In this document: one piece after another, positions 17,473 through 53,785 of the stretch | Numbering within the stretch: the stretch's first letter is position 1 | How the letters are laid out: the number at the start of each line of letters is the position of its first letter | Assembly: GCF_021233435.1 (NCBI RefSeq) | Contig: NZ_CP089469.1 | Coordinates: 62,001-126,000, forward strand | DNA: 64,000 nt | Source of the DNA: Halobacterium noricense | GTDB taxonomy: Archaea > Halobacteriota > Halobacteria > Halobacteriales > Halobacteriaceae | Direction: 5' to 3' | Position numbers and translations under genes: made by a program | Notes under the pieces: model-generated | What the model saw: the letters and a program-made list of their open reading frames with translations, nothing else | Told to the model about the DNA's origin: nothing | Database searches by the model: none

Positions 17473-17612
17473 TTGTGGTCTTTGCAAAGACACTTGGTCA
17501 TCCGTCTTTAGCTAAGCCAGAAACCGCGTGACAGCAGCGACTTATCGAGGCTACTTTTCGGGAGGAATGAGGAGGCGTAGCTGTGTCCAACAGAGCCTCC
17601 TCATCGAGAATT

Positions 17613-18887
17613 ATGCGTCGGCTCACTACTCTCTTTCCCTCCGAGTTCCTCGAAGAGCACGCCGAGGAACTCGGCGTGGTCGAGCGAGAGGGCAAGCTTC
17701 AGATTCCCGTCCTCGTGTGGGCGCTCGTGTTCGGCTTCGCCGCAGGCGAGAGCCGAACACTCGCCGGGTTCAGACGCTGCTACAACTCCACAGCTGATGA
17801 AACGATCTCTCCCGGTGGATTCCATCAGCGGCTGACGCCGACGTTGGCAGAGTATCTCCGCGACCTCGTCGAGCGTGGTCTCGACGAGGTCGCTGTTCCC
17901 AACGCTGTTGACGCTGATATCGACCGATTCAGAGACGTGATGATCGCTGATGGAACGGTGTTGCGGTTGCACGAATTCCTCTCTGATGAGTTCCAAGCCC
18001 GTCACGAGGAGCAGGCTGGAGCGAAGCTCCACCTGCTCCACAACGCCACCGAGCAGACGATTGAACGACTCGACGTGACCGACGAAAAAGCGCACGACAG
18101 CACGCTGTTCAAAACGGGCTCGTGGCTCCAAGGACGGCTCGTTCTGTTCGATCTAGCGTACTTCAAGTACCGCCGGTTCGCGTTAATCGACGAGAACGAC
18201 GGCTACTTCGTGAGTCGGCTGAAGCAGAACGCGAATCCGGTGATAACGGAGGAATTACGGGAATGGCGCGGGCGCGCCATTCCCTTAGAGGGCAAGCAGA
18301 TCCACGATGTGGTCGATGATCTCTCTCGGAAGTACATCGACGTTGAGGTCGAAGCGGAGTTCAAGCGAGGCCAGTACGAAGGAACGCGGTCGCTGGACAC
18401 GAAGCGGTTCCGCGTCGTCGGCGTCCGTGACGAGGACGCCGACGACTACCATCTGTATATCACGAATCTATCGCGAGAGGAGTTCTTCCCGGAGGATTTA
18501 GCAACGCTGTATCGGTGTCGGTGGGAGGTAGAAACGCTGTTTCGTGAACTGAAGACGCAGTACGAGTTGGACGAGTTCGACACAAGCGACCCGGATATCG
18601 TGAGAATTCTGCTGTATGCGGCGTTGCTGTCGCTGCTGGTGAGTCGTGAGCTGTTGGATCTGGTGACCGAGCAGGCTGATGACGAGATCGTGTTTCCGCC
18701 AGAACGCTGGGCGGCGACCTTCCGGTCGCACGCCCAGCTCATCCTCCACGAACTCGGTGAGTATCTCGGTTACTCACCACCGCCGTTGCTGGAGCGGCTG
18801 ATCGAGGATGCTCAGAAGATTCACCAGCAACGACCGGTCTTACAGGAGACGCTCGCTACCGCTACACAACCGAGGTGTGAGTCTTAG
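17613..18887 (+). CDS. ISH8-type (IS4 family) transposase
   Basis: 424 residues from the ATG at 17613 (a GTG at 17583 is also possible). The DDE residues sit in MIADGTVLRL, VLFDLAYFKY and WEVETLFRELK, the last being the IS4 YREK-like block. It catalyses cut-and-paste transposition. The coding sequence contains many long inverted repeats: 17727-17760, 17860-17893 (14-bp arms), 18008-18039, 18259-18284 and 18414-18446 among them. Confidence 0.93.
   Translation: MRRLTTLFPSEFLEEHAEELGVVEREGKLQIPVLVWALVFGFAAGESRTLAGFRRCYNSTADETISPGGFHQRLTPTLAEYLRDLVERGLDEVAVPNAVDADIDRFRDVMIADGTVLRLHEFLSDEFQARHEEQAGAKLHLLHNATEQTIERLDVTDEKAHDSTLFKTGSWLQGRLVLFDLAYFKYRRFALIDENDGYFVSRLKQNANPVITEELREWRGRAIPLEGKQIHDVVDDLSRKYIDVEVEAEFKRGQYEGTRSLDTKRFRVVGVRDEDADDYHLYITNLSREEFFPEDLATLYRCRWEVETLFRELKTQYELDEFDTSDPDIVRILLYAALLSLLVSRELLDLVTEQADDEIVFPPERWAATFRSHAQLILHELGEYLGYSPPPLLERLIEDAQKIHQQRPVLQETLATATQPRCES
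17860..17893. repeat. 14-bp-arm inverted repeat inside ISH8 transposase gene
   Basis: GCGACCTCGTCGAG (17860-17873) pairs perfectly with 17880-17893 across a 6-base loop. It is one of at least five such structures in this gene. Confidence 0.9.
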
Positions 18888-32693: not shown

Positions 32694-33578
32694 ATGATTC
32701 CGCTCGATGTGTTTGGCTCGGAATCGCTCGCAGCGGACCTGCTGGAACAGGTGCGCTGGCGTGACGGCGTTTCCTGCCCTCGCTGCCGTTCTGACCGGAC
32801 GGTCAAGAACGGCAGCTATGGGGCGTTTCAACGCTATCTCTGTAAGAATTGCGACCGCACGTTCAACGATAAGACGGGCACAATTTTCGCTCACTCGAAG
32901 GTTGCGCTCCGCAAGTGGTTGTTCTCGATTTACGCGTTCTTACGGTTCAATACGAGTCTTCGCCAACTTCAGCGAGAGATCGATGTGACCTACAAGACGA
33001 TGCACCGGCGCGTCGAGCGCTTCACCAGAGCGCTCGACGCGCCTCAACTCGACCTCGTTGGACCGGTCGAAATCGACGAAGTGTACGTCTCTGCGGGGTT
33101 GAAAGGCCGCGAGCGCGACCAACCGTCGCGCTCGCGTGGCCTGTCCACGCGCGGACGAGGTTCGTACGAGGGAGACAAACCACCCGTCTTCACCATCGTT
33201 GACCGTGGAACGGGACAGCGGTACGTCGTCCCGGCGAAATCCGCAGACGAATCGACGGTGCGACTCCTCCTCGCTGACCACGAGGAGGAGTCGCTAACAG
33301 TCTACACCGACGGATTTCGGGCATACGACCCGCTTGAGGACGACGACGAGTTCACCCGCAAATACGTCGTCCACGGTGACGGCGAATACGCTGATGGAGA
33401 CATCCACGTGAACACGTGCGAGAGCCACGCGTCGCTGGCGCGACGCTGGCTCTCGCCGCATCGAGGCGTCTCGAAGGACAAGTTGACACAGTATCTCCGC
33501 GCCTTTCAGCTACGCAGCGAACTCTTCAGAAAATCCGGTCGAGAAGCACTCAAACACGCTGTCAAAGCGACTCTCTGA
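32694..33578 (+). CDS. IS1595-family transposase, copy A
   Basis: 294 residues. An N-terminal zinc ribbon (CPRCRSD..CKNCDRTF) is followed by an HTH region and the ISXO2-like DDE domain: VEIDEVYV, LTVYTDGFRAY and HVNTCESHASLARRW. The product differs from copy B at one residue (Ser versus Pro in RKSGRE/RKPGRE). The coding sequence holds several long inverted repeats, for example 32782-32816, 33007-33043 and 33261-33293. Confidence 0.94.
   Translation: MIPLDVFGSESLAADLLEQVRWRDGVSCPRCRSDRTVKNGSYGAFQRYLCKNCDRTFNDKTGTIFAHSKVALRKWLFSIYAFLRFNTSLRQLQREIDVTYKTMHRRVERFTRALDAPQLDLVGPVEIDEVYVSAGLKGRERDQPSRSRGLSTRGRGSYEGDKPPVFTIVDRGTGQRYVVPAKSADESTVRLLLADHEEESLTVYTDGFRAYDPLEDDDEFTRKYVVHGDGEYADGDIHVNTCESHASLARRWLSPHRGVSKDKLTQYLRAFQLRSELFRKSGREALKHAVKATL
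33007..33043. repeat. 15-bp-arm inverted repeat in IS1595 transposase gene (copy A)
   Basis: GGCGCGTCGAGCGCT pairs perfectly with 33029-33043 across a 7-base loop. In copy C (53214-53250) the ninth pair is C-G in place of G-C, a compensatory change. Confidence 0.93.
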
Positions 33579-37830: not shown

Positions 37831-39229
37831 CAGTACTTCACAAAGCCGGTTAGTTAGAACGTCTGCTTGCTGAGGATGTGTACTCCAACAAGCAAGCAGA
37901 CGGTGAGATTCACGAGGACCAACTTCTTAACTTTCTCGTCAACCGCCTTGACGAGGAAGTTCCAATCTCTTTAGCAAATAACGCTGAAATCGCTGCTGAG
38001 GACATCTATGAGGTCCTCGTCGGCGCTTGCGCCGACGGGACCTCTGTCTCTACGCTCTGTGCGTCGAGCCAGAATACACCCACTGCGAACACGATCCTCT
38101 ACCATCTTCGGACGAAGTTCGAGCCGGAACGGCTCGAACGAGTCGCTAACACGCTCCTTCGGAAGGATATCGATGAACTGCTCCCCAAGCAGGTGGAGGT
38201 CTGCGCAGACCTCCACCTGCGACCCTACTACGGTGACAAAGCCGACACAGACGGTCTCTATCACTCGGTAGCGAAGCGTGGAACCACCGCGTTCCACGCC
38301 TACGCCACACTCTACGCGCGTGTGACGAACAAACGCTACACGCTGGCGGTGCGCCGTCTCGAAGACGGCGACACCGCCAGCAGCGTCCTCGCTGAGTTCC
38401 TCGGTATTCTCGACGGCCTTGACACCGAGATCAAGGCCGTCTACCTTGATCGCGGATTCTACGACAGCAAGTGCCTCACGCTGCTTCAGACGCACGACTA
38501 CGCGTACGTGATCCCAATCATCCGGTGGGGTGAGACGATTCAGCAAGAGCTCTCGGAAGGGTGGAGTCGTGTCATTCAGCACGATCTGACAGGGAAACTC
38601 GACGGCCACAGCTGGACCGTCGAGTTTCCCGTCTACATCGACTGTACGTACCTAAACGGGAAGTATGACGAGAACGGTGTGGCGCGTCACGGCTACGCCG
38701 CTGACGCGCCGTTCATCGACTCACCACGCGACGCTCGATACCACTACACCAAGCGGTTCGGTATCGAGTCGAGCTATCGATTGTTTGAACAAGCGATAGC
38801 GACAACAACCACACGAGATCCAACGGTACGGCTGCTGTACGTCGTGGTGAGTCTGCTATTACAGAACGTCTGGCGGTACCTTCACTACGAGTATGTGGCG
38901 ACGCCCCGCCGAGGCGGGCGTCGCCTCTGGTGGTGGCCGTACAAGGAGTTCGTCAATATGGTTCGACGAGCTGCGTGGACGGCCCTCGCGGTGCGTCGGG
39001 CCGTCCCCGCGAATCGGCCACCTGACGACCGGTTCCACCGCTAACCACCGACCGAGCAAGCCAGCAAAGTGAGTGGCAACGCTGTCGCGTCGGCGGCTGA
39101 CCGCCGCCGACAGCGACAGCTCTCCGTCGATCCGTCCGTAATCATCTCATCGAGACCATCAGTACAACCGCTTCGAGACAGAACTTAGGCCGCAGAAACA
39201 GCTAGCTGTGGATGCTTTGTGAGGTACTG
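37831..39229 (+). mobile_element. ISH3-type insertion sequence, copy 2 (1399 bp)
   Basis: The ends CAGTACTTCACAAAGC and GCTTTGTGAGGTACTG match copy 1. The flanks are ATACT and AACTT, so no target duplication is present and both flanking genes are truncated fragments. This is what recombination between two ISH3 copies or an adjacent deletion would leave. Confidence 0.9.
37878..39044 (+). CDS. ISH3 family transposase, copy 2
   Basis: 388 residues from a GTG. It has the same motifs as copy 1 (CADLHLRPYYGD, VYLDRGFYD, KRFGIESSYR) and appears intact. The internal inverted repeats are retained, including the 32-bp palindrome at 38189-38220, although many codons between them differ from copy 1. Confidence 0.94.
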   Translation: MYSNKQADGEIHEDQLLNFLVNRLDEEVPISLANNAEIAAEDIYEVLVGACADGTSVSTLCASSQNTPTANTILYHLRTKFEPERLERVANTLLRKDIDELLPKQVEVCADLHLRPYYGDKADTDGLYHSVAKRGTTAFHAYATLYARVTNKRYTLAVRRLEDGDTASSVLAEFLGILDGLDTEIKAVYLDRGFYDSKCLTLLQTHDYAYVIPIIRWGETIQQELSEGWSRVIQHDLTGKLDGHSWTVEFPVYIDCTYLNGKYDENGVARHGYAADAPFIDSPRDARYHYTKRFGIESSYRLFEQAIATTTTRDPTVRLLYVVVSLLLQNVWRYLHYEYVATPRRGGRRLWWWPYKEFVNMVRRAAWTALAVRRAVPANRPPDDRFHR

Positions 39230-41141: not shown

Positions 41142-41169
41142 GGCCGCGGGCTGACGTCAGCCCGCGGCC
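41142..41169. repeat. 28-bp perfect palindrome over the transposase stop codon
   Basis: GGCCGCGGGCTGAC followed directly by its reverse complement. The TGA stop of the minus-strand transposase lies in its centre. It may stop transcription or translation from both directions. Confidence 0.9.
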
Positions 41170-42335
41170 GGCGCGTATGCTTCTGGCACACCTGTTCCGT
41201 TCATTTCGATCTCCCAAGTCCGCTCTAGCTCTTCCTCTAATGCATGTCTGATCCAGTCAGAGAAGGTCTTGAACGTGAATTCCTCGGGCAGGTCGCGCCC
41301 GCCCCGCTGGGGGCGGGCGACGACCGCCCATCGAAGCACAAGCCAGAGGTTCTCCAACAGGAATCCAACCAGGACGAACGCGAAGCGGATGATTGGGTCT
41401 TGTGTCGTCGTTACCACTCGTGCTTGGCGAAATACACGGTAGCTCGTTTCGATCGCTGACCGTTTCCGATAGAGCCGTTCGACTTGTTTCGGCGTGCGAT
41501 CGGCCAGATCGCACGCCACATAGCCTCGAACGACCTCGCCACTTTTCCCGCGATCTCCGGCGTGATATGACACAGCGACCGCGAGCGGGAATTCCAGTTC
41601 CCGCTCGCGGCCTTTGTACATCCGATAGGTTGTCATGTACGAGCAGTGCGTATCCAGCTTCTTCCTCATGCGCTTGCCCTTCTTTTGGACGGGAACGACA
41701 GTCGCAGCAACCTCCCGTGAGCGGCGCAGAATACGTTCGTTGTAGAAGCCGCGATCAGCCAACAGAAGCTCTATCTCGAAGGGATAGGCCTCGACGCGGT
41801 CGAGGACGCGCTCGACCGCGTCGGCCTCTTTCTCATCACTACGGACGTACGTCATCGCCAACGTCACTGGCTTTCCGTTCGAGACGAGATACGCCGTGCA
41901 GTACCGGTGGCACGTCGTTGTTCCGTCTTTCGCGTGCATGCGACAGAGTTCACCTTCTTCATCGGCGTACGTTCCGTGGTAGGGGTTATCGACGAAGTCA
42001 ATGGAGACGATCCTCGACCGATCAGGGTCGAGGATCGTCATCGCTAACTCTCTGAGAAGGCGGTTAGCAACCCGCTCAAGCCACTCCCGGTTGAGCGTAT
42101 GTAGCCAGTCCATGACAGTATCGTCACAGACAGCGTTGTCGTTGTCCTTGCACGTCTCCCAGATGGACGTCTGATTGACTGCTGCAAGAATGACGACCGC
42201 CCAGATATCGCCGGGATCGAGGGGTGAGCCCTCGATCCCTGGCAAAGGGAGCTGGCAGATGACGTCTTCCGCTAAATCTTTCACGTCCGAGTCCGAAAGA
42301 ACACCGTCTGGTTGAGGGGTTTTGAACACATTCAC
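41157..42335 (-). CDS. DDE transposase, ISH3-like
   Basis: 392 residues from a GTG. The order SIDFVDNPYHGTYADEEG, IELLLADRGFYNERIL, KRSAIETSYRVFRQAR parallels ISH3 transposases, with low overall identity. The three catalytic acidic residues are present. The gene contains at least five inverted repeats with arms of 10-14 bp: 41491-41517, 41579-41610, 41792-41823, 42006-42039 and 42213-42239. Confidence 0.9.
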   Translation of the reverse strand: MNVFKTPQPDGVLSDSDVKDLAEDVICQLPLPGIEGSPLDPGDIWAVVILAAVNQTSIWETCKDNDNAVCDDTVMDWLHTLNREWLERVANRLLRELAMTILDPDRSRIVSIDFVDNPYHGTYADEEGELCRMHAKDGTTTCHRYCTAYLVSNGKPVTLAMTYVRSDEKEADAVERVLDRVEAYPFEIELLLADRGFYNERILRRSREVAATVVPVQKKGKRMRKKLDTHCSYMTTYRMYKGRERELEFPLAVAVSYHAGDRGKSGEVVRGYVACDLADRTPKQVERLYRKRSAIETSYRVFRQARVVTTTQDPIIRFAFVLVGFLLENLWLVLRWAVVARPQRGGRDLPEEFTFKTFSDWIRHALEEELERTWEIEMNGTGVPEAYAPAAG

Positions 42336-42359: not shown

Positions 42360-43501
42360 ATCAACGCTTTAGCTCCAGCTCTCATACCGGTTGGGAAGTA
42401 CCGAATTTTGTCGTCAACAGTCTCGATGAGGAACTTTCGCTGGAGCTCGGGGAGAATGTAGTGGTCACGACCGAAGAACTGTACGAGGTCCTCGCCGGCG
42501 CCAGCGCCGGCGGGACCTCGATTAATCACGTCTGCGAGACGACCGATGACTCGCCCCACGCCAATACCGTCCGTGGATATCTTACCGATCAGTTCGATCT
42601 TGATACCGTTGAAGCGGTTGGGAACACCCTCCTTCAACGAGATGTCCTTGAGACGCTTCCAGATCGACCGGTGGAGGTCGTCGCCGACCTTCACCTCGAT
42701 CCCTACTACGGTGACGAGGACGAGACGGAGTCACTGTACTTCTCACAGGCAAAACGAGGAACCACTACCTTTCACGCCTATGTCACGCTCTACGCACGAG
42801 TGCGTAACAAGCGATACACACTGGCGGTTCGCCAGCTGGTCGCTGGCGAAGCTACCAGCGATGCTCTTGATGAGTTCCTCGAACTCCTCGACGGCCTTGA
42901 CCTGCGCGTCAAGGCCGTCTACCTTGACCGCGGATTCTACAACAGCACCTGTCTCAAACTGCTGTACGCGCACAACTACGCCTACATCATGCCAATCGTC
43001 AAGTGGGGCGAAACGATTCAAGACGAACTCAGCAAAGGCTGGAGTCGCGTGATCGAACACGAACTCGCTGGGCGGGTGACATTCCCCGTGTTCATCGACT
43101 GTGTCTACCAGCGAGGACGATACGACGAGCATGGGGTGGCGCGTCACGGCTACGCCGCTGACGCGCCGTTCATTGACACGCCACAGGATGCACGAGAACA
43201 CTACAGCAAGCGCTTCGGCATCGAAGCAAGCTACCGATTAGCCAAGCAGAGCCTTGCTCTCACCAGTTCTCGAGACGCTGGGCTTCGGTTATTGCTGTTT
43301 GTCGTGAGTCTGTTGCTGCAGAACGTCTGGCGATACCTTCACTGGATGTACGTGGCGGCGCCCCGCCGTGGGGGGCGCCGCCTCTGGGAGTGGTCGTTCA
43401 CGGAGTTCTGTGAGATGGTGGTTCGTGCTGCCTGGACAGCTCTCGGTGTGCGCAGAACTGTCCCAGCGAATCAACCACCAGACGACCGGTTCTTCCGGTA
43501 G
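42360..43501 (+). pseudogene. ISH3-family transposase, diverged and 5' truncated
   Basis: The frame is open from the edge of the neighbouring element. The ISH3-like sequence begins at VPNFVVNSLDEELSLELG, so about the first 17 residues and the left terminal repeat are missing. The rest (VADLHLDPYYGD, VYLDRGFYN, KRFGIEASYR) is intact to 43501. A GTG at 42461 could start a 346-residue protein. The hairpin after the stop (about 43541-43575) matches the other ISH3 copies. No right terminal repeat was found. Confidence 0.85.
42485..42519. repeat. inverted repeat with compensatory change relative to ISH3
   Basis: GAGGTCC, T, CGCCGGCGC, 2 bases, GCGCCGGCG, GGACCTC. Copy 1 has CGTCGGCGC/GCGCCGACG at the same place (1220-1254). 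The T-A pair became C-G on both arms. Confidence 0.9.
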
Positions 43502-43714
43502 CTGTCCATGAATTGGGGCAGCGCTCGTGAGTGGCTACACTGTCGCGTCGGCGGCGGATCGCCGCCGACAGCGACTGACTGACGCTAGATCTCGCCACCA
43601 CCATCGTATCGAAGGCTATCCAGACATCATAGACGCAGATTCAGTGTCTTCTGGAGGAGACTGTGAGTCTCTCGATGTGATCGACTGAGCGTGAACTAGC
43701 CACTGGCTGGAGTC

Positions 43715-46708: not shown

Positions 46709-47709
46709 CGCTCATGTGTAGCATATTGTTGATTTCAGAGAGTCGCTTTGACAGCGTGTTTGAGTGCTTCTCGACCGGGTTTTCTGAAGAGTTCGCTGCG
46801 TAGCTGAAAGGCGCGGAGATACTGTGTCAACTTGTCCTTCGAGACGCCTCGATGCGGCGAGAGCCAGCGTCGCGCCAGCGACGCGTGGCTCTCGCACGTG
46901 TTCACGTGGATGTCTCCATCAGCGTATTCGCCGTCACCGTGGACGACGTATTTGCGGGTGAACTCGTCGTCGTCCTCAAGCGGGTCGTATGCCCGAAATC
47001 CGTCGGTGTAGACTGTTAGCGACTCCTCCTCGTGGTCAGCGAGGAGGAGTCGCACCGTCGATTCGTCTGCGGATTTCGCCGGGACGACGTACCGCTGTCC
47101 CGTTCCACGGTCAACGATGGTGAAGACGGGTGGTTTGTCTCCCTCGTACGAACCTCGTCCGCGCGTGGACAGGCCACGCGAGCGCGACGGTTGGTCGCGC
47201 TCGCGGCCTTTCAACCCCGCAGAGACGTACACTTCGTCGATTTCGACCGGTCCAACGAGGTCGAGTTGAGGCGCGTCGAGCGCTCTGGTGAAGCGCTCGA
47301 CGCGCCGGTGCATCGTCTTGTAGGTCACATCGATCTCTCGCTGAAGTTGGCGAAGACTCGTATTGAACCGTAAGAACGCGTAAATCGAGAACAACCACTT
47401 GCGGAGCGCAACCTTCGAGTGAGCGAAAATTGTGCCCGTCTTATCGTTGAACGTGCGGTCGCAATTCTTACAGAGATAGCGTTGAAACGCCCCATAGCTG
47501 CCGTTCTTGACCGTCCGGTCAGAACGGCAGCGAGGGCAGGAAACGCCGTCACGCCAGCGCACCTGTTCCAGCAGGTCCGCTGCGAGCGATTCCGAGCCAA
47601 ACACATCGAGCGGAATCATTCGTGTCGGACACCGCTAGCGCGGTGTCCTTGCTCTCTTCGATTCCAGAGCGACAGCTGAACTGAATCAACAATCTCCTAC
47701 AGAAGAGCG
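46709..47709 (-). mobile_element. IS1595-family insertion sequence, copy B (1001 bp)
   Basis: Its ends are the same as those of copy A. It is flanked on both sides by ACCAAAGAC (46700-46708 and 47710-47718), a 9-bp direct repeat that contains the expected 8-bp target duplication. With its near identity to copy A this marks very recent movement. Confidence 0.94.
46735..47619 (-). CDS. IS1595-family transposase, copy B
   Basis: 294 residues with a zinc ribbon (CPRC..CKNC) and ISXO2-like DDE domain, identical to copy A except for Pro in RKPGRE. Intact. It is likely to be the functional source, or a sibling, of copy A, and shares all inverted repeats including the leader hairpin. Confidence 0.94.
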   Translation of the reverse strand: MIPLDVFGSESLAADLLEQVRWRDGVSCPRCRSDRTVKNGSYGAFQRYLCKNCDRTFNDKTGTIFAHSKVALRKWLFSIYAFLRFNTSLRQLQREIDVTYKTMHRRVERFTRALDAPQLDLVGPVEIDEVYVSAGLKGRERDQPSRSRGLSTRGRGSYEGDKPPVFTIVDRGTGQRYVVPAKSADESTVRLLLADHEEESLTVYTDGFRAYDPLEDDDEFTRKYVVHGDGEYADGDIHVNTCESHASLARRWLSPHRGVSKDKLTQYLRAFQLRSELFRKPGREALKHAVKATL

Positions 47710-47932: not shown

Positions 47933-49260
47933 TTGACATCCTCCTCCGCCTGAAGGCGGAGGAATCCCAACGCTTGGGATATTAGGGTTTGCAGTCTCCG
48001 TGTTCTCTCGGTGTGAACCGGCCGCTCTCGCGGTCGAACAGGAAGACTCCGGGCTGTGCCAACCAGCCGTTACTCATATCCCCGGTTGGGAGACTCTGAG
48101 TTATCTTTCGCCGAATGTTTACCGCACCATTCACGTCTGCGTTCATCGTCGTCCCGCAGGACGAGCAGACGTACAGACCACGCTCCACACGATTCGAGTT
48201 ACGAATCTGTCCGCAACACGAACATGTCTTCGAGGTGTTTTCCTCGTCTACGCGGTCAACGAGGATACCGTGTTCCTCGGCCTTGTATTCAAGCAGGTTC
48301 GTGAAGCGGTTGAACTCCCAGCCGTGGAGTTTCTTGTTCCCCGACGCCCCCCAATTCCGAGATTCTCCATCGTCGTCACGGATATCGCTGAGGTCGCCAA
48401 CAGCTATCGTCTCCACGCCTGCTTCGACACACCGTTGGACAATGTGCTTCGAGAGCGTGTGGAGAAAATGGTCCTTGCGTCGAGAGAGTGACCGGCGAGC
48501 CCTTACTGCTCGCTTCGACGGGCCGTTCTGGCCTTCGGTCTGGTACTGTTCACGGGTGAAGTAGTGCTTGTCCTCTTTGAGCGTGTTCCCCGGATACAAC
48601 TCCGAACGGCCGTCTTCGTAGTCGATAGCGAGGTAGTTGCTGATCCCGAGGTCGATACCCGCCGTCTTCTCGCCGGGTGCATCCTCGACGGGAATTGCTT
48701 TCTTGCAGACGAGGTGCAGTTCCCAACAGTCGCCGTTGTAGACGGCACGCACCTGCTGAATGTTCTCGACTACTACGTCGGGTCGGGTTTCGTACTCTGC
48801 GAGGATGAAGTCCGACCGACTCGCTTTCAGGTTGAAGCCTTTCGAGAGGCGAACCTGCCCGTGTTTGTCGTCGTGTTTGATGCCTTTCTGCTTCCACGTG
48901 ACGGTCGAGCGCGGGTGGTCGTCGCCACGTTTCCGATATCCGGGTGGGTTGTTGCCGTCGTCGGAGTTGTACCAGCCGGTGAACGCTTCAGCAAGTTCTT
49001 CGAGAACTCGCTGACTTGACTGCGAATGGAGGTCACTGTAGCGTTCGTGGTCTTTCAACTCCGATTTGAGTTCGGCTTCGTCGGGGATCTCACCATCTTC
49101 GTCCCACCGGTCTTGAATGTAGTAGCGGCCGACATTCCACAGTTTTGATGCTGCGAACCCGCACTGGTCGAGATCGTCACGAACCTGGCTGTGGTTCGTA
49201 ATGCGTGCGACGTAGGTGCGGGTTGTCTCCAGCATCGTACTGTTCATAACTAGTTATGGA
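47933..49260 (-). mobile_element. IS1341-type element (tnpB only)
   Basis: The right end at 47933 has TTGACATCC, the hairpin CCTCCGCC-TGAA-GGCGGAGG (47943-47962) and a second hairpin TCCCAA-CGC-TTGGGA. There is no tnpA. The left boundary beyond the tnpB start is not defined. A further hairpin CCACGG..CCGTGG lies at about 49350. Confidence 0.75.
47982..49247 (-). CDS. tnpB: TnpB-family protein with altered RuvC-II motif
   Basis: 421 residues. The RuvC-I Asp (AGIDLGISN) and RuvC-III Asp (NADVNGAVNI) are present, and the zinc finger is CSCCG..CSSCG. The RuvC-II block reads IAVGDLSDI where canonical TnpB has xVEDL, so the usual Glu is Gly. This could mean a nuclease-dead TnpB relative or one of the TnpB groups with a relocated Glu (a Glu in YKAEEHG or VDEENTS could serve). 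It differs strongly from the 44065 TnpB. Confidence 0.9.
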   Translation of the reverse strand: MNSTMLETTRTYVARITNHSQVRDDLDQCGFAASKLWNVGRYYIQDRWDEDGEIPDEAELKSELKDHERYSDLHSQSSQRVLEELAEAFTGWYNSDDGNNPPGYRKRGDDHPRSTVTWKQKGIKHDDKHGQVRLSKGFNLKASRSDFILAEYETRPDVVVENIQQVRAVYNGDCWELHLVCKKAIPVEDAPGEKTAGIDLGISNYLAIDYEDGRSELYPGNTLKEDKHYFTREQYQTEGQNGPSKRAVRARRSLSRRKDHFLHTLSKHIVQRCVEAGVETIAVGDLSDIRDDDGESRNWGASGNKKLHGWEFNRFTNLLEYKAEEHGILVDRVDEENTSKTCSCCGQIRNSNRVERGLYVCSSCGTTMNADVNGAVNIRRKITQSLPTGDMSNGWLAQPGVFLFDRESGRFTPREHGDCKP

Positions 49261-52900: not shown

Positions 52901-53785
52901 ATGATGCCAATCAAGACGTTCGTCTCGGAGCGTCGCGCCGCGAATCTGCTGGCACAGATTCGCTGGCGTGACGGCGTCTATTGCCCGCGCTGCCGTGACG
53001 AATCTGTGATTCGGTACGGCAGCTATCGCGTGTTTCAACGGTATCTGTGTAAGGATTGCGACCGGACGTTCAACGATCAAACTGGCACCGTCTTCGAACA
53101 CTCGGCGGTCGCACTCAGAAAATGGTTTCTCGCCGTCTACACCTACATCCGCATGAACACGAGCGTCAGGCAGCTAGACGCAGAGATCGACGTTTCCTAC
53201 AAGACGGTCTACCGGCGCGTCCAGCGCTTCTTGCGAGCGCTGGACGCGCCTCGACCACACCTCAAAGGCCCCGTTGAGATCGACGAATTCTACGTGAAAG
53301 CGGGTCTCAAGGGCCGCGAGCGCGACCAACCGTCGCGCTCGCGTGGCCTGTCCACGCGCGGGCGTGGAACATACGCTGAGGACAAGCTCCCTGTGTTTGT
53401 TCTCGCAGATCGTGGCACCGGTGAACGGCACGTGATCCCAGCGAAAGCCGCAACCGAATCACGGATTCGACTCCTCCTGGCTGCCCGCCAGCAGGAGTCG
53501 TTAACCGTCTACACAGACGGGTTTCGGGCGTACGACCCACTTGACGAGGACGACGCATTCACCCGTCAATACGTCGTCCACGGTGACGGCGAGTACGTCG
53601 ATGGAGCCGTTCACGTGAACACCTGCGAGAGCCACGCGTCGCTGGCGCGACGGTGGCTCTCGCCGCATCGAGGCATCTCGAAAGACAGACTCACACCGTA
53701 TCTCCGAGCGTTTCAGCTCCGCCGTGAAGTATTCCGAAAACCGGGGAAAGAAGCGCTCAAAACCACCCTCGAAACTGCGCTATGA
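52901..53785 (+). CDS. IS1595-family transposase, copy C
   Basis: 294 residues, the same architecture as copies A and B (CPRCRDE..CKDCDRTF zinc ribbon, VEIDEFYV, LTVYTDGFRAY, HVNTCESHASLARRW) with roughly 70-75% identity by eye. Intact. Its inverted repeats lie at the same codons as in copy A but with substituted, still complementary, bases. Confidence 0.93.
   Translation: MMPIKTFVSERRAANLLAQIRWRDGVYCPRCRDESVIRYGSYRVFQRYLCKDCDRTFNDQTGTVFEHSAVALRKWFLAVYTYIRMNTSVRQLDAEIDVSYKTVYRRVQRFLRALDAPRPHLKGPVEIDEFYVKAGLKGRERDQPSRSRGLSTRGRGTYAEDKLPVFVLADRGTGERHVIPAKAATESRIRLLLAARQQESLTVYTDGFRAYDPLDEDDAFTRQYVVHGDGEYVDGAVHVNTCESHASLARRWLSPHRGISKDRLTPYLRAFQLRREVFRKPGKEALKTTLETAL
53214..53250. repeat. 15-bp-arm inverted repeat in IS1595 transposase gene (copy C)
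   Basis: GGCGCGTCCAGCGCT pairs perfectly with 53236-53250. It is the counterpart of 33007-33043 with one compensated pair change. Confidence 0.93.

Follow-up and report, generated by a model that had tools for sequence, protein, structure and literature searches.

Covarying hairpin arrays along the transposase genes of ISH3-family and other insertion sequences of haloarchaea

Restraint of transposase synthesis is generally attributed to the 5' end of the mRNA, to antisense RNA or to frameshifting. In the transposase mRNAs of the insertion sequences (ISs) IS10, IS50 and IS200, 5' hairpins hide the start region, and in RNA viruses ordered RNA structure runs through coding regions on a genome scale. 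The transposase of ISPpu9 is also held to be controlled by mRNA structure; as excerpted, its description names a structured 5' untranslated region and small RNAs acting in trans, and no array within the gene (PMC8450116). The locus presented here lies in a stretch of 64,000 nucleotides (nt) of Halobacterium noricense DNA (contig NZ_CP089469.1, positions 62,001 to 126,000; hereafter the window), which contains several transposase genes of the ISH3 family. The ISH3-type element carries an array of about ten hairpins (H1 to H10), with one at the start codon, seven or eight within the reading frame and one after the stop codon. Like the read-through guard of IS10 and IS50, H1 holds the start codon in its loop and has one arm upstream, whereas the seven or eight conserved hairpins of the coding sequence and the one past the stop set the array apart from the IS10/IS50/IS200 type. 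The array shares with the ordered structure of RNA viruses that many structures are spread along coding sequence, but it consists of discrete, short, perfect and covarying hairpins, is found in DNA ISs and is common to unrelated families of one host group.

Two copies in the window, assigned here to an A-type (gene at 1088) and a diverged B-type (frame at 42461), illustrate the covariation. In the B-type copy, H2 occupies positions 42485-42519, as the initial annotation had described, and consists of GAGGTCC, a bulged T, CGCCGGCGC, CA, GCGCCGGCG and GGACCTC; an extra outer pair, 42484-42520, also forms. The A-type counterpart at 1220-1254 reads GAGGTCC-T-CGTCGGCGC/GCGCCGACG-GGACCTC. A change on both arms, already reported from these two copies, is located at pair 1230-1245, which is T-A in the 1088 copy and C-G in the 42461 copy, with replacement of V by A and of D by G in the protein. 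For the family-wide comparison, 77 distinct intact A- and B-type coding sequences (58 A, 19 B) were compiled from 392 genomes of the order and from the own genome; their length was restricted to 1080-1180 nt, and copies with stops or outside this range were left out. A perfect stem of at least 8 base pairs (bp) is present at the H2 site in 57 of the 58 A-type and all 19 B-type sequences (76/77), compared with two and one, respectively, after synonymous shuffling (3/77). In 65 of the 77 sequences the 14 core pairs are Watson-Crick without exception, and the stem is far from being broken as often as it is kept, with 95.9% of H2 cells Watson-Crick (n = 1232). H2 is a real, conserved stem and one member of the array.

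The suggestion that structure is better preserved than sequence also holds across the family: codons of the arms are near-fixed, those of the loop and flanks are free, and partners tend to change together. In H2, the arm codons GGC, GCC, GTC and ACC are retained in 77, 76, 74 and 72 of the 77 sequences, while all four third bases occur in the loop codon GCN and the adjoining TCN is equally unconstrained. Compensation that is silent on both arms (GTC/GGG to GTT/GGA) has three origins (L043, L073 and L096), compensation that alters the residues of both arms (GTC/GAC to GCC/GGC) is seen in the B-type, and one sequence (L045) alters the residue of a single arm (GCC/GGC to GCT/AGC). In three further sequences (L094, L095 and L102) the right arm has changed from GGG ACC to GAG GAC, with a 12-bp stem retained.

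The remaining hairpins behave similarly. Synonymous diversity along the gene dips at seven regions of the frame that coincide with H2-H8, the ratio of observed to expected synonymous variation being about 0.04-0.4 on stems versus about 0.6-0.95 elsewhere. Among the 102 pairs of the main stems, 93.3% of cells are Watson-Crick, and the tree shows 23 independent double changes in which a different Watson-Crick pair replaces the first; ten controls, in which the partner was slid by 1-9 columns, gave 0-5 double changes and at most 41.3% Watson-Crick. This set of pairs leaves out H9 and two weak stems of the 1088 copy, which are poorly kept (1944-1978, 76.6% Watson-Crick; 1983-2010, 56.1%). H9 is present in 50/58 A-type versus 3/19 B-type sequences, and H4 reaches at least 8 bp in 56/58 and 8/19. 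In the H1 window, where upstream sequence pairs with the start region, a stem of at least 8 bp is found in 57/58 A-type and 16/19 B-type sequences; the loop contains the GTG start. H10 is present in 55/58 and 18/19. Compensatory forms are seen in both H1 and H10.

In the A-type copy, all on the plus strand, H1 (1071-1111) has its arms on either side of the start codon and is followed by H2, H3 (1399-1430; a perfect 16-bp palindrome), H4 (1552-1591; inner and outer stems), H5 (1622-1651), H6 (1802-1840; a 16-bp stem whose residues are deleted in the B-type), H7 (1891-1920), H8 (2107-2135), H9 (2187-2216; retained mainly in the A-type) and the post-stop H10 (2299-2321). The B-type copy, also on the plus strand, carries beside H2 the hairpins H3 (42670-42695; GGTGGAGGTCG/CGACCTTCACC, with one G.T), H4 (42828-42859; TTCGCCAGC/GCTGGCGAA, the B-type form of CGCCGTCT/AGACGGCG), H5 (42890-42919; GACGGCCTTGAC/GTCAAGGCCGTC), H7 (43138-43167; GGCGCGTCA/TGACGCGCC), H8 (43354-43382; GGCGGCGCCCC/GGGGCGCCGCC) and, 3' of the stop codon, H10 (43547-43569). 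Two of these had been recognized before: the structure corresponding to H5 exists, but its arms lie at 42890-42901/42908-42919 and not within 42895-42930 as first given, and the hairpin following the stop codon is likewise found, with arms 43547-43556/43560-43569.

Stems of this kind far exceed what the encoded proteins would produce by chance. The 42461-43501 frame contains five perfect stems of at least 9 bp (mean of 40 shuffles 0.42, maximum 2) and the 1088 copy eleven (mean 0.88, maximum 3, 40 shuffles), with fold-energy z-scores of -7.1 and -7.3, respectively (24 shuffles). These shuffles preserve protein, codon usage and dinucleotide counts; against such dinucleotide-keeping recoding, six window genes have 4-11 stems versus 0.17-0.88, and mRNA folding z-scores of -4.7 to -7.5 in all six.

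Similar arrays are found in transposases unrelated to ISH3. In the own genome, 585 open reading frames (ORFs) from 41 stretches (about 0.84 Mb) were scanned for perfect stems of at least 9 bp relative to synonymous shuffles. The 27 most stem-enriched ORFs include 25 that are transposase-like and comprise 16 ISH3 A/B-type, one C-type, two IS4, five IS1595, one weakly IS-like and two without family; the other 558 ORFs hold 313 stems versus 248 expected. Two candidates, L178:937-1479(-) and L148:17860-19518(-), have no Pfam match and were excluded from the transposase count; they carry 5-6 stems and are perhaps spurious frames above structured RNA genes. A 440-residue ORF with six stems (L176:18214-19536(-)) has weak similarity to IS1595/ISKra4 models and possibly represents another array-bearing IS family. 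On contig 3, a DDE gene (L312) with a 332-codon frame and six stems of 10-14 bp resembles only the IS5 and IS1182 models, and those weakly.

Consensus helices covary in each of the families aligned. Watson-Crick pairing and double changes amount to 91.8% and 23 for IS4 (21 sequences; 2-7 double changes in slid controls), 90.1% and 14 for IS1595 (27 sequences; 1-2) and 85.2% and 18 for the C-type (23 sequences including two A-type; 1-6). Third-position changes per column, in stems and outside, are 3.25/10.46 for ISH3, 1.69/3.75 for IS4, 1.72/4.48 for IS1595 and 1.17/4.56 for the C-type, i.e. ratios of 0.26-0.45; for these counts, as for the G.U and A.C counts below, the C-type set was taken without the two A-type sequences. 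In H. salinarum NRC-1, with 0.1-0.8 stems expected per gene, the plasmid genes ISH3B, ISH27-2 and ISH27-3 have 11, 10 and 9 stems, the ISH8/A/B/C/E genes 6, 5, 5, 6 and 6, and ISH28, ISH11, ISH10, ISH4 and ISH6 have 3, 6, 7, 6 and 5; the 112 non-IS control genes total 41 stems versus 24 expected. Haloarchaeal elements of ISH3, IS4, IS5, IS66, IS1595 and ISH6 thus share similar hairpin arrays. Structure here shapes the whole gene, up to residues that change together on the two arms, in six IS families of one host group.

The closest known elements are ISH3B and ISH27 of H. salinarum: the three ISH3-type genes scanned in the window pass the family model NF033541, the 1088 copy is 91.7% identical to ISH27-2, and the H. 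salinarum genes themselves have 9-11 stems. Hairpins in the coding sequence are not described in the papers searched, and relatives in other orders have 0-2 stems. No paper on hairpin arrays inside haloarchaeal transposase genes was found in open-licence PMC, with ISfinder and subscription papers outside the search. Start-region hairpins are known; a covarying array over the whole coding sequence that is common to unrelated families of one host group was found neither there nor in Rfam.

The arrays are limited in distribution. Twelve TnpB loci of the own genome have 0, 0, 0, 4, 0, 0, 1, 1, 1, 0, 0 and 0 stems (L252 is partial, and L254 and L255 are of equal length and may be identical), and the two TnpB genes counted in H. 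salinarum NRC-1 have 2 and 0. L247 is the exceptional TnpB gene with four stems, all of 9 bp. Also in the own genome, three long DDE genes with frames of 564-626 residues have 0-2 stems. Relatives found with the ISH3 profile in other orders of the phylum (11 loci, of which L329 and L330 are partial) also have 0-2 stems, some of them at 52-56% G+C, and among haloarchaeal matches to this profile two with long frames have 0 and 1 stems and a third has 4. The IS1, IS2, IS4, IS5 and IS30 genes of Escherichia coli have 0-1 stems and two IS genes of Sinorhizobium fredii none. Outside haloarchaea, the IS1595 genes counted have no stem in Octadecabacter and Alicyclobacillus and one in Bacteroides; a distant haloarchaeal IS1595 gene (38% identical) has five. 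Counts from Deinococcus weigh against a purely haloarchaeal pattern. In D. radiodurans, the ISDra7 genes have 4-5 stems, ISDra1 2-3 and a further transposase 5; an IS3 OrfB has none, and 36 non-IS genes hold 9 stems versus 15.7 expected. A piece of an IS1595 element of D. aquaticus contains two 14-bp stems, and two ISDra7 relatives in D. wulumuqiensis have 4 and 2; in more remote relatives the counts are 0 (Leptolyngbya), 0 (Persicobacter) and 1 (Parabacteroides). Plasmid IS4-type genes of D. radiodurans and D. wulumuqiensis (L361, L364, L365 and L366) contain 2-5 perfect stems, some with loops of 0-2 nt.

With moderate confidence, unrelated DDE transposases of haloarchaea, and apparently of Deinococcus, can be considered to have acquired covarying hairpin arrays convergently, as a means of metering transposition through shared host machinery, for example an Sm protein, the initiation of leaderless mRNAs or recombination in polyploid cells. 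An RNA brake that acts in cis on transposase synthesis, exerted on translation and processing and partly relieved by an Sm protein, is proposed tentatively and at somewhat less than even chances, because published evidence from outside this analysis points to RNA. The hairpins would act within the transposase mRNA, where short-loop stems of 9-16 bp every ~60-220 nt may delay or arrest ribosomes and promote processing or decay; very little transposase would then be made from plentiful mRNA. The start-codon hairpin H1 might additionally silence transcripts entering from outside, and a hairpin-melting Sm-type RNA chaperone (SmAP1) could allow translation sufficient for transposition. Since such a brake would act in cis, damage to the host would be limited without dependence on a particular host factor sequence.

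Excerpts from a study of H. salinarum (PMC10134880) describe plentiful mobilome mRNAs with proteins detected for 4 of 33, three of which are TnpB; TnpB genes are mostly without arrays, which is counted in favour of the brake. The same excerpts report a pile-up of ribosomes at the 5' end, SmAP1 binding and a processing site on one ISH3 mRNA, reduced transposition of IS4- and ISH3-family elements upon SmAP1 deletion, and mention hairpin melting by Sm-type proteins (PMC10134880). Both families with SmAP1-dependent transposition are array-bearing in the present analysis. In addition, polysome profiling, as excerpted, showed three ISH3/ISH27 transposases to be translationally repressed in stationary phase, and those genes of Haloferax volcanii whose translational efficiency is constitutively low to code almost exclusively for transposases or hypothetical proteins (PMC3225822). 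The arrays are a concrete and mutable candidate for the puzzle of abundant transposase mRNAs and scarce proteins in haloarchaea, and for the question of why it is the ISH3 and IS4 families whose transposition drops when SmAP1 is lost.

Several observations weigh against the RNA brake. The stem sequences do not single out the sense RNA strand: departures from pairing are G.U or A.C in a proportion of 84:51, compared with a mutation-bias background of 2588:1909 (odds ratio 1.21, P = 0.29). The test is low in power, because 31 pairs of the RNase P control likewise give no significant preference (21:14, odds ratio 1.24); among standing cells, the IS stems contain 298 G.U and 251 A.C, the corresponding values for RNase P being 12.4% and 2.4%. 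The left arm of H1 precedes the start codon and may be absent from a leaderless mRNA, and some loops of 0-2 nt are as fitting for a palindrome as for an RNA hairpin. The array is not universal, since ISH7A and ISH7B of H. salinarum NRC-1 have one stem each. The one detected protein other than TnpB belongs to ISH2, of the ISH8 family (excerpt of PMC10134880), and ISH2 is outside the stem counts.

Part of this evidence fits a role of the hairpins at the DNA level, in which cruciforms or hairpins in single-stranded DNA take part in replication, repair or strand exchange, for example by limiting recombination between multicopy ISs or by attracting nucleases. The lack of a strand preference for G.U over A.C, the palindromes with loops of 0-2 nt (H3, ISDra7), the span of H1 across the likely transcript start and the arrays in ISs of D. 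radiodurans all accord with it, and haloarchaea and Deinococcus are both polyploid. This role is nevertheless considered unlikely: the stem sequences differ, so that no sequence-specific protein site is implied, and the arrays track transposase-type coding frames and rarely occur in the TnpB genes of that genome. To our knowledge, there is no DNA transaction of DDE ISs that needs many internal palindromes.

A rather improbable alternative at the RNA level is that the hairpins protect poorly translated mRNA against RNases or factor-dependent transcription termination and thereby raise the mRNA level rather than lower translation. Stems along the entire gene and one past the stop codon would suit such protection, as would the unusual abundance of transposase mRNAs for their low protein in the excerpts of PMC10134880; the processing sites reported there on transposase mRNAs mean, however, that these mRNAs are not fully protected.

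Whatever their role, the hairpins are kept by selection, as seen in fixed synonymous codons, compensatory changes and uncompensated breakage in dead copies. Relative to the nearest intact copy, 22 lesioned copies have 80 Watson-Crick pairs broken and 2 compensated, compared with 116 broken and 15 compensated among intact copies (P = 0.019), the intact-copy comparisons including longer divergences. The difference is not significant in the subsets with at least two (P = 0.059) or at least four lesions (P = 0.20). Changes at first and second positions in stems amount to 0.021 in lesioned versus 0.010 in intact copies. Only parts aligned by BLAST were used, in which 22 of 24 copies have at least one lesion and L273 and L274 have none; L103 was left out. 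Dead-copy breakage and the scarcity of stems in ordinary genes are moderate evidence for selection over mutation bias, given the longer divergences among intact copies. Template switching during replication is known to perfect inverted repeats in other organisms. If palindromes were maintained neutrally in this way, compensation would need no function and dead copies would be expected to retain their pairs; the compensatory changes do hit both arms together. Such an origin is very improbable here, given the stem-poor ordinary genes of the same genome (the 558 ORFs above), the dead copies that break pairs without restoring them (80:2) and the ISH3 relatives of other orders that have no arrays. 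Even though G+C-rich genes form more chance stems, a mere by-product of codon usage and protein constraint can practically be dismissed, being refuted by the recoding that keeps protein, codons and dinucleotides (0.17-0.88 vs 4-11 stems) and by third-position changes in stems at 0.26-0.45 of the outside rate. The overlapping constraint biases the ratio of nonsynonymous to synonymous substitution rates (dN/dS), codon-usage analyses and divergence dating of these ISs.

The B-type copy that carries H2 is itself 5'-truncated and extends over 42404-43687 on the plus strand, with homology to other B-type copies starting at 42404. It retains its right terminal repeat (CGATGTGATCGACTG, 43673-43687), while the left end, the start codon and the start-codon hairpin are gone. 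The match begins at 42404 or later in the first 15 of the 53 plasmid records that match, and intact B-type copies elsewhere start normally and possess a left end of their own. A minus-strand C-type element joins the copy at ~42404, within B-type codon ~12, and the left end and start codon were lost because this element abuts inside the copy. The copy is a decapitated relic whose stems equal those of its intact relatives. Its remaining transposase frame (42461-43501, +) encodes 346 amino acids from the first GTG and is 65% identical at the protein level to the 1088 copy. The latter belongs to a complete A-type element (1041-2429, +; the one 91.7% identical to ISH27-2) with terminal inverted repeats and a target duplication (arms 1036-1056/2414-2434, 90% complementary; AGACT direct repeats at 1036-1040 and 2430-2434), and its gene (1088-2254, +) encodes 388 amino acids from a GTG start. 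A second intact A-type copy (37878-39044, +) has 11 stems. The C-type gene (41157-42335, -) is 31% identical to the A-type and has conserved stems at 42213-42239, 42006-42039, 41792-41823, 41581-41608, 41491-41517 and 41296-41319. All three ISH3 genes scanned in the window pass the curated cut-off of NF033541 (225), with 373 (A-type, 1088), 365 (B-type) and 411 bits (C-type).

Other families are represented in the window by an IS4-family (ISH8-like) transposase (17583-18887, +), included in the stem scan and the conserved helices, with conserved stems at 17643-17672, 17658-17678, 17727-17760, 17860-17893, 18008-18039, 18259-18284, 18414-18446 and 18706-18738, and by three IS1595-family transposases. 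The first of these (32694-33578, +) has conserved stems at 32782-32816, 33007-33043, 33108-33136, 33261-33293 and 33418-33456; the others have five (46738-47619, -) and four stems (52901-53785, +). A scan of the whole window with Rfam yielded no family for the hairpins and, as its only match, sot0042 (sense overlapping transcript RNA) at 47942-48106(-), near a TnpB gene. Finally, a loopless perfect 28-bp palindrome (GGCCGCGGGCTGAC/GTCAGCCCGCGGCC, 41142-41169) extends across the stop region of the C-type gene.
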